From contig JAKSYS010000121.1 in the NCBI GenBank assembly GCA_022925895.1, positions 1-64,000 on the forward strand: a stretch of DNA of 64,000 bases, in the 5' to 3' direction. The notes under the pieces are model-generated. The model ran no database searches. It saw only the letters and a list, made by a program, of their open reading frames with translations, and was not told the DNA's origin. Made by a program: the position numbers and the translations under genes. Source of the stretch: Fragilaria crotonensis. Its lineage: Eukaryota > Bacillariophyta > Fragilariophyceae > Fragilariales > Fragilariaceae. Shown in pieces: positions 4,723 to 26,106 of the stretch (position 1 is its first letter; each line of letters starts with the position of its first letter).

Positions 4723-5363
4723 GGTTCTAATTTCTAATGCAGCTCATTTGAATTTGTGATGCTTGTATTCAACACGAAAAGCGATACTCCGAGTACGACT
4801 GTACATGTCAGTACGGCAGACAGGTGCGACTGCACGCAACGGCTATGTGTGCTACTGCAACTGGAGTTCTGTATCATAGCGCTACAGTTCGGAGTTCTCA
4901 TATACTGGAGTACAGTTGTGTCTTATGATATATGCATACGACGCGAACGTTGAACGAATTAAGATCTGGATTGGTCCAGTACTTCAGTACCCAGTGCTGT
5001 ACAGGTAAACGTTTTTTTCTATCATACACAGTATCATCTACTACCCTACTTGTACAGGCTTCTGTTTTCTGTTCCATCATGCAGTACCAGTACCCGCATA
5101 GGCGAAGAAGACGATCTCTGTCAGGAGTCGTGACATCATAGGTCACACCACGACACACGAAACAGCAAGTGAGCAGAACAAAGAACAGCCATCAATTGGC
5201 GACAATTGGCGGTCGATAGTTGAGCTCGTCCTTGTGCGCATACTCAACTTACCTTCGATATCGCCTTGGCATCGATAGGCTCTCCGAGCCTTTCTGGTCC
5301 TAGGATTGTCGCATCGCGAGGTAGAGGCGAGGTTTGAGACTTCGCAGCGAGAAGGGCATCAAA
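4723..5363. other. divergent intergenic region
   Basis: Lies between the dehydrogenase and the RluA-like gene, which point away from each other, so it should contain both promoters. It is rich in short GTAC-type palindromes and TAC/GTA triplets like most intergenic DNA in the window. No gene is seen. Confidence 0.4.
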
Positions 5364-6359
5364 ATGAAGTACTGTTCCGCATATTTCTTGTTCTTCATCG
5401 GCACATCCTTCGCATTCTTGCCAGGTCGTCGCCAGGGTCGCATACTTCATTTAACCGTGGTACGATCCAGCCTCAATGCTCAGGAAATCAATGATCGGCT
5501 TCAGAATAACATAGAAAAAATGAAGACTAGAGATCGAGCGGCCAGGGTGCTTACGAAAGAGGAAGTTAACATAGTCTATGACGACCGATACATCATCGTC
5601 GTCGACAAGCCGTCAGGAGTCCTGTGCGTCTCGAATGACGAAAGTATTCCTTCTCTTTGCAAGACTGTCTATGGAATGATCGAGAACCCAGCGATTGACA
5701 TGTCACAAATGGTGGTGCATAGACTTGGTATGGATACATCGGGTTTGATTGTATTTTGCAAGACCATGAAGGCTGTCAAAGGAATGAATCGACTGTTTCG
5801 CATGCGACAAGTTTCAAAAGAATACGAAGCCCTTGTATGCGGCTCTTTTCCTGAGGACGAGGGGGTCATTTCCATGCCCCTCATGCGCGACTACGAAATG
5901 CCGCCCTACATGCGAGTTTCGACAGACGCGCATCAACTTGCGTTGGCGTATTTGGACGACCCCGAGGCACTGCCCAAGAAATTTCTTGAACCTCCGAAAC
6001 CCTGTCTGACCAAATACACGGTTCTTGGGCGTGAAACTATTGAGGGATTGGACGTGACACGCGTTTCGTTAAGCAGCGTCACGGGGCGTACTCACCAACT
6101 GAACGTCCATCTTGCAGCCTTTGGTCATCCAATTGTTGCAGATGCCGTCTACGGGGTGAACGGTGTGGCGCTACCCAACGGAGGACTCAGCGAGGACGAT
6201 ATGATCCGCGACCGTCCTCACCGAGCCACTCTGGAACTCCAACAGCAGATCGCAAGTGCCACCAAGGATTGGAACATGTGTATCCATGCTACTCTGCTAA
6301 CTTTCAAGCATCCGGTGACAAAAACAGATTTGTCGATTCGGAGCCCCGCCCCCTTTTAA
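5364..6359 (+). CDS. RluA-family RNA pseudouridine synthase-like protein, plastid-targeted, catalytic Asp replaced
   Basis: About 331 residues from the ATG at 5364; an earlier in-frame ATG at 5334 would put charged residues before the signal peptide. The N-terminus MKYCSAYFLFFIGTSFAFLPGRR is a signal peptide followed by SFAFLP, a diatom plastid signal. The body has RluA landmarks: DDRYIIVVDKPSGVLC, then HRLGMDTSGLIVFCKT, KEYEALVCG, GRTHQLNVHLAAFGHPIVADAVYG. Active enzymes read HRLDxxTSG, where Asp is the nucleophile. Here that position is Gly (codon 5727-5729), so it may be inactive, may bind RNA only, or may use the Asp two residues later. Family assignment is firm; activity is not. Confidence 0.85.
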   Translation: MKYCSAYFLFFIGTSFAFLPGRRQGRILHLTVVRSSLNAQEINDRLQNNIEKMKTRDRAARVLTKEEVNIVYDDRYIIVVDKPSGVLCVSNDESIPSLCKTVYGMIENPAIDMSQMVVHRLGMDTSGLIVFCKTMKAVKGMNRLFRMRQVSKEYEALVCGSFPEDEGVISMPLMRDYEMPPYMRVSTDAHQLALAYLDDPEALPKKFLEPPKPCLTKYTVLGRETIEGLDVTRVSLSSVTGRTHQLNVHLAAFGHPIVADAVYGVNGVALPNGGLSEDDMIRDRPHRATLELQQQIASATKDWNMCIHATLLTFKHPVTKTDLSIRSPAPF

Positions 6360-16439: not shown

Positions 16440-19400
16440 TTGGCCGTACTCAGGACGCTGGGGTCGGTTGATGTGTCCGTTGCACATGAATCGGCAACTG
16501 ACCTTGACTCACACGCCGACCAGTGTGCCGTAGGCAGTAACTGCTTAGTAGTCCACGACTACGATCGTCCTATTAATGTGTCGGGTTATAACCCGTCAGG
16601 TCCCGTCGCCAAGGACCTTAAAACTGTTTCCGCGGCGCTCGCGTACGATGACCCAGTTTCTGGCGAAACGGTTATCCTCATGGTCCATCAGGCGATCCAT
16701 ATCCCTGACATCGCTCACAATCTCCTTTCAACGATGCAGCTCAGACTTAATGACGTTATTGTAAACGACGTTCCTCGTTTCTTAACTGACACAGTTACTG
16801 ACCTGACACATTCTTTGGTGATTCCAACCGATGCTACGGACGTCCCATACGTGATTCCCCTTTCGCTCCGTGGGATTACTTCGACTTTCCCAACTCGCAG
16901 ACCGACCACCACAGAGTACGAAACCCTCCCACACATTACTCTGACAGACCCGGATCTTCCGTGGGACCCGCACGACACAACATTTGCCCAACAAGAGGAC
17001 GCGCTCACGAACTACCTGTCGGAAACAGGGGACCGCATCGGAGCATCGCCACCGTCCCGCCGACTTTGCTCGGTTTCCAACATGCATTCGTTCGCCAGCG
17101 ATTTGCAGCGTGGACTCGACGCCCCGAGTATGTCCTTATCAGGAACCTCGCCAACGCTCGAGATCCATTCATTCGCCCGTTCCATTGCATCCCTTCGTTC
17201 CTCGGCGACAGGAAAGCAATTGGATCCCCAACTCTTGGCACGGAATTGGGGAATTGACATAACGACCGCAAGGCGGACCGTAAACGTCACGACCCAACGC
17301 GGCATACGCACGGTATTGCACCCAACACTTTCTCGTCGGTTCCGTACAAACGACCGTCAATTACGGTACCGGCGATTGCCGATTGATTGTTTTACTGACA
17401 CACTCATCTCTAACACTACCTCACGGCGAAACAATAAATACGCACAGGTATTTGCAACATCTGACGGTTGGTGTAGAGCATACCCCATGTCGAAGAAATC
17501 GCTCGCACATGAGGGGCTCTCCCTATTGTTCCAACGTGAAGGTGTTCCCAACGTAATGGTAATGGATGGCGCTAGGGAGCAGACGATGGGTTTGTTCCGG
17601 AAGAAATGCCGCGAGGTCGGAACCCGAGTGCGACAGACAGAGCCTCACACACCCTGGTCGAATGCGGCCGAAGCGGCAATTCGAGAACTGAAAAAGGGCG
17701 TTGGAAGGCAGATGGTCCGCTCCGGCGCGCCCAAGCGTCTTTGGGATGACTGCCTGGAACGAGAGGCATATGTCAGATCTCTGACAGCGCACGATATTTA
17801 TAAACTCGACGGGCAAGTGCCCGAAACCGTTGTCAGCGGCGAAACCGCTGACATATCACCATTCGCCCTATTCAAGTGGTATGAGTGGGTGATGTTCCGA
17901 GACACGTCTGTGACGTATCCGGACGACGCAATGGTTTTAGGCCGCGACCTCGGCCCTGCCATCGACATTGGTCCGGCTATGACCAGGAAGGTCCTTAAAC
18001 AGAACGGACAGGTCGTTTACCGGTCAACCGTCCGATCGCTCACGCCGGATGAGTTGGCCGACGAATCGACAAAGAAGAAGAGGGAAGAGTTTACGGAAAA
18101 GGTGAACGCAGTTTTAGGGGACGGTTTCAAATATGAGGATTTTGCGTCGGACCCGGAATTGGTTGACCTTGACACCCCACCTTCTCAAATTATGCCGACG
18201 ACGACGACGGCGAGATGCCTCAAGTCCCCGATGCTGACGACGAACCCGATGCCGACACACGATCAGTATGTCGGGGCTGAGGTGACACTCCCGCTCGGTG
18301 ACAGGATGTTAAGCGCGAAAGTTCGGAAAAGGAAACGCGCGATCGACGGGAGCCTCGTCGGAAAGGCAAACTCGAACCCCATCCTTGATACTCGAACTTA
18401 CGAAGTCGAATTCGCTGACGGCCAAACAGCGGAACTATCAGCCAACGTCATCGCGCAGAATATGTACGCGATGTGCGACTTGGAGGGCAACCAGTTTCTC
18501 CTTTTAAAGGGGATCGTTGATCACCGTAAAGACGGATCTGCGATCGAACGCGCAGATATGTTCGTCCAACGAGGATCGAATCGTCACTATCGAAAAACAA
18601 CCAAGGGTTGGCAACTATGTGTCGAGTGGAAGGATGGGAGCACATCATGGGAGCGGCTCGCTGACCTGAAGGAATCCAATCCGGTCGAGCTGGCCGATTA
18701 CGCGATTGCCCATGGAATCGAGAATGAACCCGCCTTCGCGTGGTGGGTACCCTTCACGATAAAGCGACGCGATCGGATTATCGCGGCGGTTAACAACCGC
18801 TACCATAAGCGAACGCACAAATTCGGACTCGAGGTCCCGAAGACATACGACGACTGCATTCGCATTGACCGCGAAAACGGTAATACCTTATGGCAGGATG
18901 CCATACGGAAAGAGATGACTAAGGTTCAGGTTGCTTTTCAAGTCCTGAACGGTGACTCAGAACCGCCTCCTACGTATCAGGAGATTCGCTGCCATCTCGT
19001 TTTTGATATCAAGATGGAAGACTTTCAGCGGAAAGCCCGCTTGGTGGCCGGTGGACACATGACTACGTCACCACCTGCATACGTAACGTATGCAAGCGTC
19101 GTCTCGAGGGAGTCAGTGCGTATAGCGCTAACGCTGGCTGCCCTTAACGACCTAGAGGTGAAGACTGCCGACATTGAGAATGCCTATTTAACGGCGCCGG
19201 TAGGTGAGAAGATATGGTGTCGGCTCGGTCCGGAGTTTGGGGCTGACGCCGGCAAGAAGGCAATAATAGTTCGGGCGCTGTACGGTCTGAAGTCTGCTGG
19301 TGCTTCATTCCGAAACCATCTCGCTGATTGCATGCGGCATTTGGGTTGGGAGTCATGCATGGCAGATCCGGACGTGTGGCTCAAACCTGAACTGCGACCA

Positions 19401-20543
19401 GACGACGGCTACAAGTATTACGCATACTGTTTGCTGTACGTGGACGACATTCTAGTTGTCCACCATAATGGAGTTCGGGCTCTAAATGAAATCGATCATT
19501 TCTTTAAGACAAAACCCGGCTCGATACGTGACCCTGAATACTATTTAGGGGCTAAGCTGCGTACGACAACGTTGCCAAATGGGGTACGTTGCTGGGCAAT
19601 GAGCTCAAGCAAGTACATCCAGGCTGCGGTACGCAATGTCAAGGAGTTTCACGACACGAACTTCCCGTCTCGACATTGGTCGAAGCGTGCAAAGGGACCG
19701 TTCCCTCTAAGTTATGCCCCAGAACTCGATGTTAGCCCAGTGTTGGGTGACGGTCATGCATCGTTCTATCAGACTCAAATCGGAGTTCTACGATGGTGCG
19801 TGGAGTTGGGGCGCGTCGATATCATCACTGAGGTTTCGGAGCTCGCGTCATACTTGACTCAACCTCGTGAGGGACACTTGGACGCAGTGTTCCACATCTT
19901 TAACTATCTGGACAAGAAGCATAATGCGAGAATTGTCTTTGATCCGACTTATCCGGTCGTCGACATGTCCTCGTTTAAGGAATGCGACTGGCGACAATAC
20001 TACGGAAACGTTAAGGAGGCGATACCGCCTAATGCGCCGGAGCCACGTGGGAAAGAGGTTGATCTCCGACTCTTCGTGGACTCTGATCATGCCGGTGACC
20101 AACGTACGCGACGGTCGCGAACAGGGTTCATTATTTACATGAATATGTCACCCATTACGTGGTTCTCAAAGAAGCAGTCTACGATCGAGACCAGCGTTTT
20201 TGGTGCTGAATTCGTGGCAATGAAACAAGGCATGGAAACGCTCCGAGGGCTTCGCTATAAGCTTCGGATGATGGGAGTGCATCTCTCTGGCCCCTCATTC
20301 ATATACGGGGACAATATGTCTGTGATTCACAATACTCAGCGACCAGAATCCACATTAAAGAAGAAGTCGAACTCGGTGTGTTATCACGCGGTTCGCGAAG
20401 CGGTTGCGATGGGTGAATGCCTGACTGGGCACGTATCATCTCACGACAATCCTGCAGATATTTGTACAAAGATCATTCCCGGTGGTCAGAAGCGTGACCA
20501 TCTTGTGGGCCTGATTTTATACGACCTTGTAGATCATCGTTGA
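16440..20543 (+). CDS. pol polyprotein region of the copia element
   Basis: 1,367 residues, open throughout. In order: a protease-like box LDSHADQCAVG near the start; an integrase core with the D, D, E signature spread over CFTDT, VMDGAREQ and AAEAAIRELK (~residues 310-430); reverse transcriptase from about residue 800 with LVAGGH, DIENAYL, RALYGLKSAG and the catalytic LLYVDDIL near 998; and RNase H with FVDSDHAGD near 1213 and FGAEFVAM, ending with HVSSHDNPADICTKI. This is the standard Ty1/copia arrangement. The first methionine is the track's choice; such elements are often expressed together with gag by read-through or frameshifting. Confidence 0.9.
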   Translation: MAVLRTLGSVDVSVAHESATDLDSHADQCAVGSNCLVVHDYDRPINVSGYNPSGPVAKDLKTVSAALAYDDPVSGETVILMVHQAIHIPDIAHNLLSTMQLRLNDVIVNDVPRFLTDTVTDLTHSLVIPTDATDVPYVIPLSLRGITSTFPTRRPTTTEYETLPHITLTDPDLPWDPHDTTFAQQEDALTNYLSETGDRIGASPPSRRLCSVSNMHSFASDLQRGLDAPSMSLSGTSPTLEIHSFARSIASLRSSATGKQLDPQLLARNWGIDITTARRTVNVTTQRGIRTVLHPTLSRRFRTNDRQLRYRRLPIDCFTDTLISNTTSRRNNKYAQVFATSDGWCRAYPMSKKSLAHEGLSLLFQREGVPNVMVMDGAREQTMGLFRKKCREVGTRVRQTEPHTPWSNAAEAAIRELKKGVGRQMVRSGAPKRLWDDCLEREAYVRSLTAHDIYKLDGQVPETVVSGETADISPFALFKWYEWVMFRDTSVTYPDDAMVLGRDLGPAIDIGPAMTRKVLKQNGQVVYRSTVRSLTPDELADESTKKKREEFTEKVNAVLGDGFKYEDFASDPELVDLDTPPSQIMPTTTTARCLKSPMLTTNPMPTHDQYVGAEVTLPLGDRMLSAKVRKRKRAIDGSLVGKANSNPILDTRTYEVEFADGQTAELSANVIAQNMYAMCDLEGNQFLLLKGIVDHRKDGSAIERADMFVQRGSNRHYRKTTKGWQLCVEWKDGSTSWERLADLKESNPVELADYAIAHGIENEPAFAWWVPFTIKRRDRIIAAVNNRYHKRTHKFGLEVPKTYDDCIRIDRENGNTLWQDAIRKEMTKVQVAFQVLNGDSEPPPTYQEIRCHLVFDIKMEDFQRKARLVAGGHMTTSPPAYVTYASVVSRESVRIALTLAALNDLEVKTADIENAYLTAPVGEKIWCRLGPEFGADAGKKAIIVRALYGLKSAGASFRNHLADCMRHLGWESCMADPDVWLKPELRPDDGYKYYAYCLLYVDDILVVHHNGVRALNEIDHFFKTKPGSIRDPEYYLGAKLRTTTLPNGVRCWAMSSSKYIQAAVRNVKEFHDTNFPSRHWSKRAKGPFPLSYAPELDVSPVLGDGHASFYQTQIGVLRWCVELGRVDIITEVSELASYLTQPREGHLDAVFHIFNYLDKKHNARIVFDPTYPVVDMSSFKECDWRQYYGNVKEAIPPNAPEPRGKEVDLRLFVDSDHAGDQRTRRSRTGFIIYMNMSPITWFSKKQSTIETSVFGAEFVAMKQGMETLRGLRYKLRMMGVHLSGPSFIYGDNMSVIHNTQRPESTLKKKSNSVCYHAVREAVAMGECLTGHVSSHDNPADICTKIIPGGQKRDHLVGLILYDLVDHR

Positions 20544-22340: not shown

Positions 22341-23495
22341 CTATTCTTCTTGGTCGTCCTCTGTTTTCTTGCACAACTTGACTAGATCCAGAACGGGAGG
22401 AATCGAGGGTCGGTACAACAACGCAGTGTGCCCCATCACTTGAGCGACGTGCGCATTCAATGTCTCAGCAATCCGTTCGCCAAGAATCTTGGCTCCTTTT
22501 TTCTTGGAAACAGCCGTATTGAGCCGCAGCAATATCAGTTCGTATTTCCACAACGAAGCGTCGACCTGCTCCAACCATGAAGCGTTCATGGGAAGGTCTT
22601 TGACCACATCCTCTATTCCAACGTCTAAATCCTCCTCTATCCCCGGACCCGGCCAGAGATGCACCAATATTGATTTGTCCGTTTTCATTCGTCCCCCCAG
22701 TGCTCGTAGCGCTCGGCGTTTGGCACCATTAATCGTAGAATAGTCCGTCGCATCACGCGGTGTGATACGCTGAACAAAGTTTTGGACCAAGGCCGCGCAG
22801 CTGTCGCGGCTGGCACCGACTGCCTCCACCACTTGAATCCCAGCGTCTTGAAGGACCCGGTAGCCACCTCCATCCACCCGTGGATTCGGATCACGAAAGC
22901 CCACTACGACCTTGGTCACTCCCGCCAGCACCAACGATGCCGCACACGGTGGAGTCTTGCCGTGGTGACAACAGGGTTCGAGCGTCACATAGGCAGTCGC
23001 GGTATTCTCCTTGTCAACAAACGTACCGCCCACTAGTTTGGAGGGTCCAGCGTCTGTAATGTACTGTTGTGTCAGTTGAGTTACTTGTTCTAGTAATTGC
23101 GGATTGGATTTATCAATGACAGCTTCGGCCGCTGCCACCCCGTCGTCCAAGTGTCCTGCCGCTTGGAGCAAAGCAAAGACTTCGGCATGCGGCAGACCTG
23201 CCTTGGGGTGAAATCCCGCTCCAACAACTTGTGAACTTTGTACGATGACACATCCCACAGCCGGATTGGGAAATGTGTGACCAATACCCTTGCGAGCATG
23301 TTGCACAGCGAGTGCCAAGTATTGTTCGTCTTGTTCTGAGAGGCTGCTTGCGAATCGTCTGGATCTCATCCTTGTCTCATAATGATGTGGATGTCTCAGT
23401 CTCGTGGGAGGGAGAGGATGGAGAAAGGCTGCCGTTCTCACTCGAATGACGCGAATCATGATCATGGCAGTCAAAAATTGGGGTAAGGGCCTCAT
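22341..23495 (-). CDS. riboflavin-biosynthesis deaminase (RibD N-domain) fused to a CRM/YhbY-like domain, plastid-targeted
   Basis: 384 residues from the ATG at 23495, or 374 from 23465. The N-terminus (MIMIRVIRVRTAAFLHPLPP) looks like a signal or transit peptide with AAFLHP, fitting plastid delivery. The deaminase domain (~45-250) has the zinc and catalytic residues of RibD: HAEV, and PCCHHGKTPPC, plus NPAVGCVIV and the FRDPNPRVDGGG motif. It would deaminate the diaminohydroxyribosylaminopyrimidine phosphate. No reductase domain follows. Instead the C-terminal ~125 residues match the layout of the YhbY/CRM RNA-binding domain: KRRALRALGGRMKTDKSILV, WLEQVDASLWKYELILLRL, then LGERIAETLNAHVAQVMGHT and LLYRPS. 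The CRM call rests on the spacing and the VQVxGxTxxLYRP-type ending. An open frame extends further 5' to 23672 but is His/Ser low complexity. Confidence 0.82.
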   Translation of the reverse strand: MRPLPQFLTAMIMIRVIRVRTAAFLHPLPPTRLRHPHHYETRMRSRRFASSLSEQDEQYLALAVQHARKGIGHTFPNPAVGCVIVQSSQVVGAGFHPKAGLPHAEVFALLQAAGHLDDGVAAAEAVIDKSNPQLLEQVTQLTQQYITDAGPSKLVGGTFVDKENTATAYVTLEPCCHHGKTPPCAASLVLAGVTKVVVGFRDPNPRVDGGGYRVLQDAGIQVVEAVGASRDSCAALVQNFVQRITPRDATDYSTINGAKRRALRALGGRMKTDKSILVHLWPGPGIEEDLDVGIEDVVKDLPMNASWLEQVDASLWKYELILLRLNTAVSKKKGAKILGERIAETLNAHVAQVMGHTALLYRPSIPPVLDLVKLCKKTEDDQEE

Positions 23496-24504
23496 CAGCC
23501 CAATTTTTTGTCGATAAGGGTGGATGTTTTGTTGAGATGTTGATGATTGATGCTGATCGAAGTGGTGTGATGTGTGATGGGGTGATGTGTGATGGGTGAT
23601 GGGGGGGTAGCTCACTTGCTTTGCAACTGATCGATTTGAATGGATGTGGTGATGACACATCTGCCTGTTCATTCTTTCGCTTACCCACCCGCCATCCCCA
23701 GCAACTCCAGGCCTGTGCTAAGTGAACCATCCAGGAGCTTGTAGACTCCTAGAATTCTAACGTCATAACCACTGCGTTTTAGCCCACTATGCCACTGTAG
23801 AGACCTACTAGCACTAGCGCACTCGTCACCGTGGCATTTTCGGTATTACACGTAGTAGCCATCGACGTAGAATCATTCACTAGCACTTTACCATATCGAG
23901 TGCCTGTAGCAGTACAGCTGAGGCGACTTCTGGGAATCCTGTGGATTCTTCATATATATTCGGAGTAAAAAATCCTCACTCGTCCTATGTCATACTGTAG
24001 TACGTGTAGTATGCTACTGGTACCTTTTTGAGTAGGTTAGTATCCGTACGCCCGTACTCCGTATGCGTGAGTACCAGTGCTACAGTACCAGGTACCAAGA
24101 TTACAGAGGATGCAGGACCCCTACTGAGATTTCTTAGTACCGGTACCATACTCCAGTCCACTGTTCTACAGCGTTTCACAAAGGCAACAGGGTAGATACT
24201 GCACGGTACAAATCCTACAGTCTCCCGTGAACCAGTATCATACTTGGAGTGTTGAAGTTTGGAGTATCCTACTTGTACATGGGAGTACATAGTAAGGTAC
24301 TACCGTACTACTCACTGGTCACTAGTCAGTCCTTTAACGTTACTGGGTACTTGTACATGTACTATTTCGATATTCAATGTACTTGTACGGTATGAACGAA
24401 TTGTCGAGTGTCGCGTCGCACACATCTTTTTTGCTTTGATCATAAAATAGAGGTGTGTGACGAGTGACGAGTGACAAGTGACAAAACTCCAAAATTGCAC
24501 AACG
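23496..24504. other. divergent intergenic region
   Basis: About 1 kb between the divergent RibD-CRM and HCF101 genes, so both promoters should lie here. Near 23566-23610 are repeats of TGATGTGTGATGGGG. GTAC-type palindromes are dense at 24000-24380. A tandem 7-mer array, GTGACGA/GTGACAA, four units at 24457-24484, lies just before the HCF101 ATG. No gene is seen. Confidence 0.45.
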
Positions 24505-26106
24505 ATGATACACGTGGCGCCAATCCTATCGATACTACTGTTAGCACTCATATCGACGTCTGTGGGGGCCTTTGCACCTAGCCACAAATGGGGGCTTCAA
24601 ACGACGCGGCTTTACGAGCTTCCCCCAATCCCAACCGAATGGCAAGGGGAAGTCCTCAAGGTACTCAAGCAGGTGATTGATCCCGACCTTAATAAGGACA
24701 TTGTTACGCTTGGTTTTGTAAAGAACTTGGCATTAGACGAGGATCGCAAGCTATCATTCGACGTTGAGCTCACTACTCCGGCGTGTCCTGTCAAGGAACA
24801 GTTCGCATTGGACTGTGAAAAGCTTGTCAAGAGCCTTGAGTGGACGAAAGATGTGGATATTACCATGACATCGCAACCCACTAATATGGACACAGAGACA
24901 ATTGGCATGTCTCACATCGGCGCCATCATTGCGGTCAGCAGTTGCAAGGGAGGTGTTGGAAAATCTACGACTGCCGTAAATCTGGCATTCGCTCTGCAGT
25001 CCTTAGGCGCCACGGTCGGAATTTTCGATGCCGACGTTTATGGTCCCTCCCTACCGACAATGGTCAAACCCGATGACGACATTGTTCGATTCATCGGTCG
25101 CCAAATCGCCCCGCTTCAAAGAAATGGAGTTCGCTTGATGAGCTTCGGTTATGTCAACGACGGGTCGGCCGTCATGAGAGGGCCCATGGTCACGCAGTTG
25201 TTGGATCAATTCCTGAGCGTCACCCATTGGGGTTCAATGGACTACCTTGTCCTTGACATGCCTCCTGGAACTGGTGATATACAATTGACACTGACTCAGA
25301 GACTGAACATTACCGCAGCTGTCATTGTTACGACACCACAGGAGTTGTCCTTCGTAGATGTAGAACGTGGTGTGGAAATGTTTGATACAGTCAATGTTCC
25401 TTGCGTTGCTGTCGTGGAGAACATGGCCTACTATCAAGTCGAAAACAAGGCCAAGCTGGATACGGTTGCACTGCAGGCATCATTCGTTGATAAGCTGACT
25501 GAAATGGGTGTGTGTCAAAATGGTGTGACTCCGGATGTGCTTGCTGCCGAGCTAGTAAAGCTGGCTCAGGATTCGGCCACGACGGAGCCTGAGCAAGTGC
25601 GACTATTTGGTCCTGGTCACACGAAGCGCCTATCTGAACAGTGGGGAATCGAGCATATATATTCCATGCCTCTGCTCGAAAATATTGCTGCCAAAGGAGA
25701 TGCGGGAACTCCCTACGTCCTTGCTTATCCAGACAGTCCCCAAACGGCGATCTACAAGGAATTGGCGTCTTCTGTTGTATCCGAGGTTGCCAAGGCCAAG
25801 TTCAATCGTATTTCAGAGCAACCACTGATCGAATTTAACAAGGAACGGCATCAGATTGAAGCAGATGGTGGATCCATTTCTCCGGCTGATCTCCGACGTG
25901 CCTGTCGCTGTGCCGCCTGCGTCGAGGAAATGACAGGACGGCAAATCCTAATCCCATCCTCAGTTTCGGAACGTATCGAACCCATCAAGATGTATCCAAC
26001 CGGCAACTATGCGCTCTCTGTAAACTGGTCAGATGGTCACAAGTCGCTTTATCCGTATCGTCAGATTCGAAGTCTTCTCCAAGAGAAAGTAAAGATTAGC
26101 AACTAA
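24505..26106 (+). CDS. HCF101: HCF101-type P-loop iron-sulfur cluster scaffold, plastid
   Basis: 533 residues from the ATG at 24505. The N-terminus MIHVAPILSILLLALISTSVGAFAPSHK is a signal peptide with the plastid motif GAFAP. Then come a MIP18/DUF59 domain (~50-125), the Mrp/ApbC P-loop ATPase with SSCKGGVGKSTTAVNLA (~142-158), DADVYGPSLPT and DMPPGTGD, and a C-terminal DUF971 domain (~430-525; GNYALSVNWSDGH). This three-domain order defines HCF101, which hands 4Fe-4S clusters to photosystem I and ferredoxin-thioredoxin reductase. As in plant HCF101, the CxxC of bacterial Mrp after VENMAYY is absent. A CRCAAC cluster lies in DUF971. About 50 extra residues separate VENMAYY from LFGPGH, beyond what I expect for the family. 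Confidence 0.92.
   Translation: MIHVAPILSILLLALISTSVGAFAPSHKWGLQTTRLYELPPIPTEWQGEVLKVLKQVIDPDLNKDIVTLGFVKNLALDEDRKLSFDVELTTPACPVKEQFALDCEKLVKSLEWTKDVDITMTSQPTNMDTETIGMSHIGAIIAVSSCKGGVGKSTTAVNLAFALQSLGATVGIFDADVYGPSLPTMVKPDDDIVRFIGRQIAPLQRNGVRLMSFGYVNDGSAVMRGPMVTQLLDQFLSVTHWGSMDYLVLDMPPGTGDIQLTLTQRLNITAAVIVTTPQELSFVDVERGVEMFDTVNVPCVAVVENMAYYQVENKAKLDTVALQASFVDKLTEMGVCQNGVTPDVLAAELVKLAQDSATTEPEQVRLFGPGHTKRLSEQWGIEHIYSMPLLENIAAKGDAGTPYVLAYPDSPQTAIYKELASSVVSEVAKAKFNRISEQPLIEFNKERHQIEADGGSISPADLRRACRCAACVEEMTGRQILIPSSVSERIEPIKMYPTGNYALSVNWSDGHKSLYPYRQIRSLLQEKVKISN

Follow-up and report, generated by a model that had tools for sequence, protein, structure and literature searches.

What might a riboflavin-pathway deaminase do with a domain related to ribosome-associated RNA-binding proteins in the place of its reductase, and do the two really form a single gene? 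The question is raised by a coding frame at 22341..23495 on the minus strand (384 aa plus stop) of the window, by which we mean the whole 64,000-nucleotide stretch of the Fragilaria crotonensis contig JAKSYS010000121.1 analysed here. The longest open reading frame at this locus (22341-23672, minus strand) comprises 443 codons and runs without interruption to a stop at 22341; residues are numbered throughout on this 443-aa ORF, in which the methionine of the shorter frame is residue 60, and the numbering of the initial annotation is lower by 59. The start of the 443-aa ORF (23672) falls within a dispersed repeat that extends from 23610 to about 23951; its edge at 23610 is sharp and lies 115 bases upstream of the probable start codon, and its far edge was placed by eye. 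Codons 1-21 lie inside this repeat, and the part queried (23500-23760) gave no fewer than 39 further genomic matches, with identities of 74-100% (of 57 candidates, 40 were scored). Since the start at 23672 sits in this repeat, the methionine at 23495 is the likelier start, and the first 59 codons of the longer frame are probably non-coding. Read from the translation, the N-terminal extension of the protein (23343..23495, minus strand) is rich in R, H and P and contains a short hydrophobic stretch and the sequence RTAA/FLHP, which we take by eye to be a plastid-presequence motif. The extension as a whole resembles a diatom-type bipartite plastid presequence, which would point to organelle targeting.

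The RibD-type deaminase carries out the second step of riboflavin (vitamin B2) synthesis, and the first half of the protein had initially been read as a RibD deaminase with its full HAEV and PCCHHGKTPPC set. Profile matches and motif positions bear this reading out. The RibD-type pyrimidine deaminase domain (22761..23342, minus strand; residues 111-304) is matched by the NCBIfam RibD model TIGR00326 at 159.7 bits, for a cut-off of 156.35, over residues 120-303 and model positions 2-136 of 343, and by PF00383 with an E-value of 2.8e-15. Both elements of the RibD-type motif set, HAE and PCxxHGKTPPC, are present in the fusion protein: the HAE motif (23181..23189, minus strand; residues 162-164), presumably the zinc and proton-shuttle site, and the PCCHHGKTPPC motif (22944..22976, minus strand; residues 233-243), which we take to be the zinc-binding site, are intact. 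The domain shows 42-54% identity with 25 aligned deaminase segments from bacteria (taken from 80 fetched), the fusion protein has 30-42% identity in a tblastn comparison with 80 RibD loci (the best 80 of at least 567 relatives), and the best solved relatives of the deaminase half are RibD enzymes, such as 3zpc. A profile of 68 near-full-length bacterial RibD proteins aligns with residues 109-174 and 220-304. Between the two motifs, the profile gap and the alignment delimit an insert of about 45 residues (residues 175-219; 23016..23150, minus strand), which is missing from all 25 aligned bacterial segments. We consider it very probable that this half of the protein performs the deamination step.

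The C-terminal half had been proposed to follow the CRM/YhbY fold, with a profile search devoid of CRM matches as the outcome that would speak against it; a match was found, and the proposal is upheld by PF01985, by YhbY profiles and by hhalign. These methods, together with an alignment with 46 YhbY proteins, place a divergent CRM (CRS1/YhbY) domain at residues 312-423 (22404..22739, minus strand). With PF01985, the whole protein scores 26.0 bits (E 1.1e-5), just below the cut-off of 27, and residues 303-443 alone score 29.8 bits (E 7.4e-7), above it; across the 62.1-Mb genome the fusion is the best of three places, at 27.9 bits, again above the cut-off. Because this score is borderline, independent tests were made with YhbY profiles. 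A profile of 13 bacterial YhbY sequences, from which the fragments L112 and L113 were left out, yielded 34.1 bits against a top score of 8.8 in 5000 shuffles, and a profile of 46 (46 of the 51 YhbY loci, omitting also L106, L107 and L110, with the query not included) yielded 31.2 bits against 7.7 in 5000 shuffles. When compared by hhalign, the same 46 sequences matched residues 309-432 with a probability of 96.9%, the top value in 200 shuffles being 11.6%. The N-terminal helix of the domain (INGAKRRALRALGG) lies inside the hhalign match and is weak by HMMER (1.4 bits), and the second half is close to YhbY (ELI, MGHTALLYRP). TIGR00253, the equivalog model of the YhbY ribosome assembly factor, scored 21.9 bits for a cut-off of 78.5, and a single-sequence structure model (mean pLDDT 37.6) was too poor for a fold search. 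Because the YhbY profiles and hhalign beat their shuffled controls, and the RibD profile and BLAST searches described below are negative over this part of the protein, we regard the CRM homology of the C-terminal half as real.

A profile made from the YhbY alignment with the query among its members also matches chain Xh of PDB 8a22 (mL127; E 2.2e-9), which we take, going by its name, to be a mitochondrial ribosome protein. Since the profile matches mL127, a CRM-like domain may be built into some mitoribosomes.

The CRM domain of the fusion protein lacks the GxxG loop, an element that contributes to RNA binding according to passages of a review (PMC7352785). No G..G occurs anywhere in residues 303-443, the strict I/L-G-x-x-G pattern being found in 41 of the 46 YhbY proteins. 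The stretch that replaces the loop and the following turn (residues 332-361; 22590..22679, minus strand) has no GxxG and a net charge of -6, and this acidic stretch occupies the site of the CRM loop and the next helix. A reshaped loop may nevertheless remain in the domain, because hhalign sets PGPGIEE opposite the GxxG loop. The net charge of the CRM domain is +3, the range among the 46 YhbY proteins being -1 to +12, and amounts to +9 without the acidic stretch. RNA binding by this copy, weakened as a default assumption, would still be possible because the domain is basic overall.

A separate CRM-like gene that keeps the loop, as GSKG, occurs in two near-identical places of the genome (L017 on contig C73 and L018 on contig C869, with 95-97% identity in blastn segments), which may be alleles or the result of a duplication. 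PF01985 gives the first exon of this gene 20.0-21.4 bits, below the cut-off; once a predicted 193-base intron is removed, the 46-YhbY profile matches the CRM domain of the C73 copy at 27.9 bits, the top score in 5000 shuffles being 7.3. The same copy has a long DA repeat in its N-terminal part.

The genome was likewise searched for the riboflavin pathway. The fusion gene, at 160.4 bits, is the sole RibD deaminase found with TIGR00326. Besides it, the model matches four places, of which two are the reductases and two are weak matches (28.2 and 27.9 bits; model positions 42-93 only), and the ORF around one of the latter (L015) contains a PF00383 cytidine/dCMP deaminase domain. The reductases are two different stand-alone RibD_C proteins (L010 and L011), located on contigs C647 and C870, and GTP cyclohydrolase II was found as well. 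Given these reductases, the cyclohydrolase and a single RibD deaminase found, the pathway would need the fusion deaminase; since introns hide genes from a six-frame search, all these gene counts are lower bounds.

The explanation that we prefer, and in which our confidence as a whole is evenly balanced, is that of a plastid deaminase working with reduction in trans and bearing a structural or docking CRM domain. A nuclear, probably plastid-targeted gene would encode the cell's RibD-type deaminase, with the CRM domain standing, almost exactly at the domain boundary, in the position of the reductase, and the presumably active deaminase would supply its product to a reductase encoded elsewhere, on C647 or C870. 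The weakest step concerns the divergent CRM domain, which would be mainly a structural or docking appendage, and not a canonical GxxG-dependent RNA chaperone, and would stabilise the deaminase or tether it to a partner, for example an organelle ribosome or its rRNA, through a basic face. The loss of GxxG and the presence of an acidic stretch, while the separate CRM-like gene keeps GSKG, argue for such a structural role, whereas the net charge of +3 argues against it, fitting RNA binding equally well. If the CRM domain were only structural, an unrelated fold would turn out to be able to take over the position of the reductase at this boundary.

It is also conceivable, if rather unlikely, that the protein has two jobs, the deaminase making riboflavin and the CRM domain binding organellar rRNA or intron RNA for ribosome assembly or splicing. 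The CRM homology and the net basic charge of the domain are consistent with this, as are two precedents: CFM4, a single-CRM plant protein described in part of one paper (PMC4021458) as having a GxxG loop, acting in chloroplast rRNA processing and being an RNA chaperone, and yeast Rib2, in which, according to passages of another (PMC8256712), a pseudouridine synthase domain is paired with a riboflavin-pathway deaminase. The fusion protein, however, has an acidic stretch where CFM4 is described with the loop, and another CRM-like gene with the loop exists in the genome. The initial annotation had pointed in the same direction by suggesting either control through RNA or moonlighting in the biogenesis of plastid ribosomes; its domain identities stand, whereas the missing GxxG and the separate loop-bearing gene leave the roles themselves as possibilities. 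Should the protein indeed have two jobs, the supply of flavin would be physically coupled to translation in the organelle and, were the CRM domain conserved and found to bind rRNA or an intron, vitamin B2 supply would be linked to organelle gene expression. It is unlikely, in our estimate, that the plastid deaminase and the reshaped CRM domain act together in a way that couples flavin synthesis to RNA processing or ribosome assembly in the organelle, this being an invention shared across the algal group and parallel to yeast Rib2.

The low PF01985 score of the whole protein (26.0 for a cut-off of 27), the lost loop, the insert and a dip in codon usage just past the junction would all suit a CRM domain that is merely the decaying, functionless passenger of a recent fusion. 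Yet the frame is open to its end and the codon-usage score stays positive over the CRM half and, because the second half of the CRM domain is well kept (ELI, MGHTALLYRP), we deem a functionless passenger quite improbable.

Whether the two halves belong to one gene depends on the junction between them. Only about 8 residues separate the end of the deaminase match, at residue 304, from residue 312, where the CRM alignment starts, and this spacing indicates that the CRM domain replaces the reductase almost at the domain boundary. From residue 101 onwards, the in-frame codon-usage score is positive at all 30-codon steps, with a dip right after the junction, and third-position GC is similar in the two halves (0.508 and 0.55). 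Over residues 321-350 a different frame has a slight advantage (0.13 against 0.09), as might be expected if the CRM part belonged to a separate transcript, by way of either two genes or an assembly artefact; this is nonetheless very improbable, with no stop, no frame change and only about 8 residues between the domain matches, and with a deaminase profile match that continues to its normal end ahead of the CRM match. We thus take the gene fusion to be real, as judged from the sequence.

The absence of the reductase half, which had been claimed at the outset, is confirmed by several searches. The TIGR00326 match ends at model position 136 of 343 and leaves the reductase part uncovered; PF01872, the reductase family, is not among the six Pfam matches obtained on the fusion protein at E up to 1; the profile of 68 RibD proteins reports no match on residues 303-443; and BLAST of the same residues against 81 RibD loci gave 22.3 bits at best, no better than shuffled versions, which found a match in 200 of 200 cases with a median of 23.5 and a top score of 29.6 bits. 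The 81 loci comprise 80 from the genome_contigs collection (the best 80 of at least 567 relatives) and one from viral_contigs. A bifunctional RibD is recognised by a C-terminal RibD_C reductase domain, which the fusion protein does not have, and the fusion gene should not carry that annotation. Plant PyrD carries a degenerate reductase, and PyrR a COG3236 part. That the C-terminal part of the fusion is a degenerate RibD reductase domain of the kind seen in plant PyrD is almost certainly wrong: 13 of the 80 rows listed in the locus search do extend past query residue 210 (to 219-299, that is, residues 332-412), but the RibD profile is silent on this part, for which reason the identity was rejected, BLAST against RibD loci equals shuffle level, PF01872 is missing from the Pfam matches and the CRM score lies far above shuffles.

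The fusion protein can be set beside several known systems. It resembles the bifunctional bacterial deaminase-reductase RibD/RibG in its deaminase domain, its motifs and the end of that domain, and differs from it in having a CRM domain instead of the reductase and about 45 extra residues between the motifs. As in plants, where part of one paper names the deaminase (PYRD) and the reductase (PYRR) as separate enzymes (PMC10964609), the two are separate proteins in this genome; unlike plant PYRD, the deaminase here continues into a CRM domain. The nearest precedent is yeast Rib2, in which a riboflavin-pathway deaminase is also joined to a domain of RNA metabolism, although the partner domain is a different one, lies on the N-terminal side and works within the fungal order of reactions, with reduction first. 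The work on the Aspergillus Rib2 structures suggests that the domain fusion of yeast Rib2 may aid structural stability (PMC8256712). The homology to bacterial YhbY covers the whole CRM domain by hhalign; unlike YhbY and the plastid proteins with one CRM domain, for example CFM4, however, the fusion protein lacks GxxG, contains an acidic insert and is fused to an enzyme. Fusion of a riboflavin deaminase to an RNA-related domain seems to have happened on at least two occasions, to a pseudouridine synthase in yeasts (as described in passages of PMC8256712) and to a CRM domain here.

In the sequence collections searched, the deaminase-CRM fusion is known from one sequence. Among the 81 RibD loci, drawn from viral contigs as well as bacterial genomes, none contains a CRM match at E 1e-3, and the reductase half is reached in 79 of them, the exceptions (L068 and L071) being short loci of 2048 and 1931 bases. 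No RibD deaminase fusion was seen among the 51 YhbY loci (in the YhbY searches, 14 of 30, 100 of 150 and 8 of 99 genomes had a match), and the only one of the 51 with a RibD-profile match (L102) has it in a separate downstream ORF that is dCMP deaminase-like by eye. Two YhbY rows have an open frame longer than 300 aa (G217/L143, at 839, and G032, at 522), and the visible upstream part of the 839-aa frame has no RibD match. Among 10 candidate stretches from viral_contigs, no relative of the C-terminal part was found. These collections were not meant for algae, and therefore say little on how widespread the fusion is; with one fusion sequence only, conservation supports no role for the CRM domain. 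Literature searches retrieved no paper joining CRM domain, riboflavin and deaminase, none joining riboflavin biosynthesis, diatom and PyrD, and none joining RIB2, tRNA pseudouridine and riboflavin; a looser search had, among the matches listed, none with both CRM/YhbY and RibD terms. Part of one paper describes RibD gene families as expanded in two sea-ice diatoms (PMC13149256), and RibD numbers would consequently vary among diatoms.

Several other features were observed in the window, in which an Rfam search gave no match. Part of the dispersed repeat upstream of the fusion gene is carried twice by one further locus (L152). The neighbouring gene, in opposite orientation (24478-26106, plus strand), encodes FeS_assembly_P, Mrp/NUBPL-type NTPase and GBBH-like_N domains, an order that we take to be that of the chloroplast iron-sulphur factor HCF101, and has by eye a plastid-type presequence (AFAP). 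A long ORF at 16440-20543 (plus strand) appears by eye to be like a copia-type retrotransposon polyprotein. Finally, an ORF at 5334-6359 (plus strand), separate from the fusion gene and about 16 kb from it, resembles by eye an RluA-type pseudouridine synthase; a domain of this type is fused to the deaminase in yeast Rib2.
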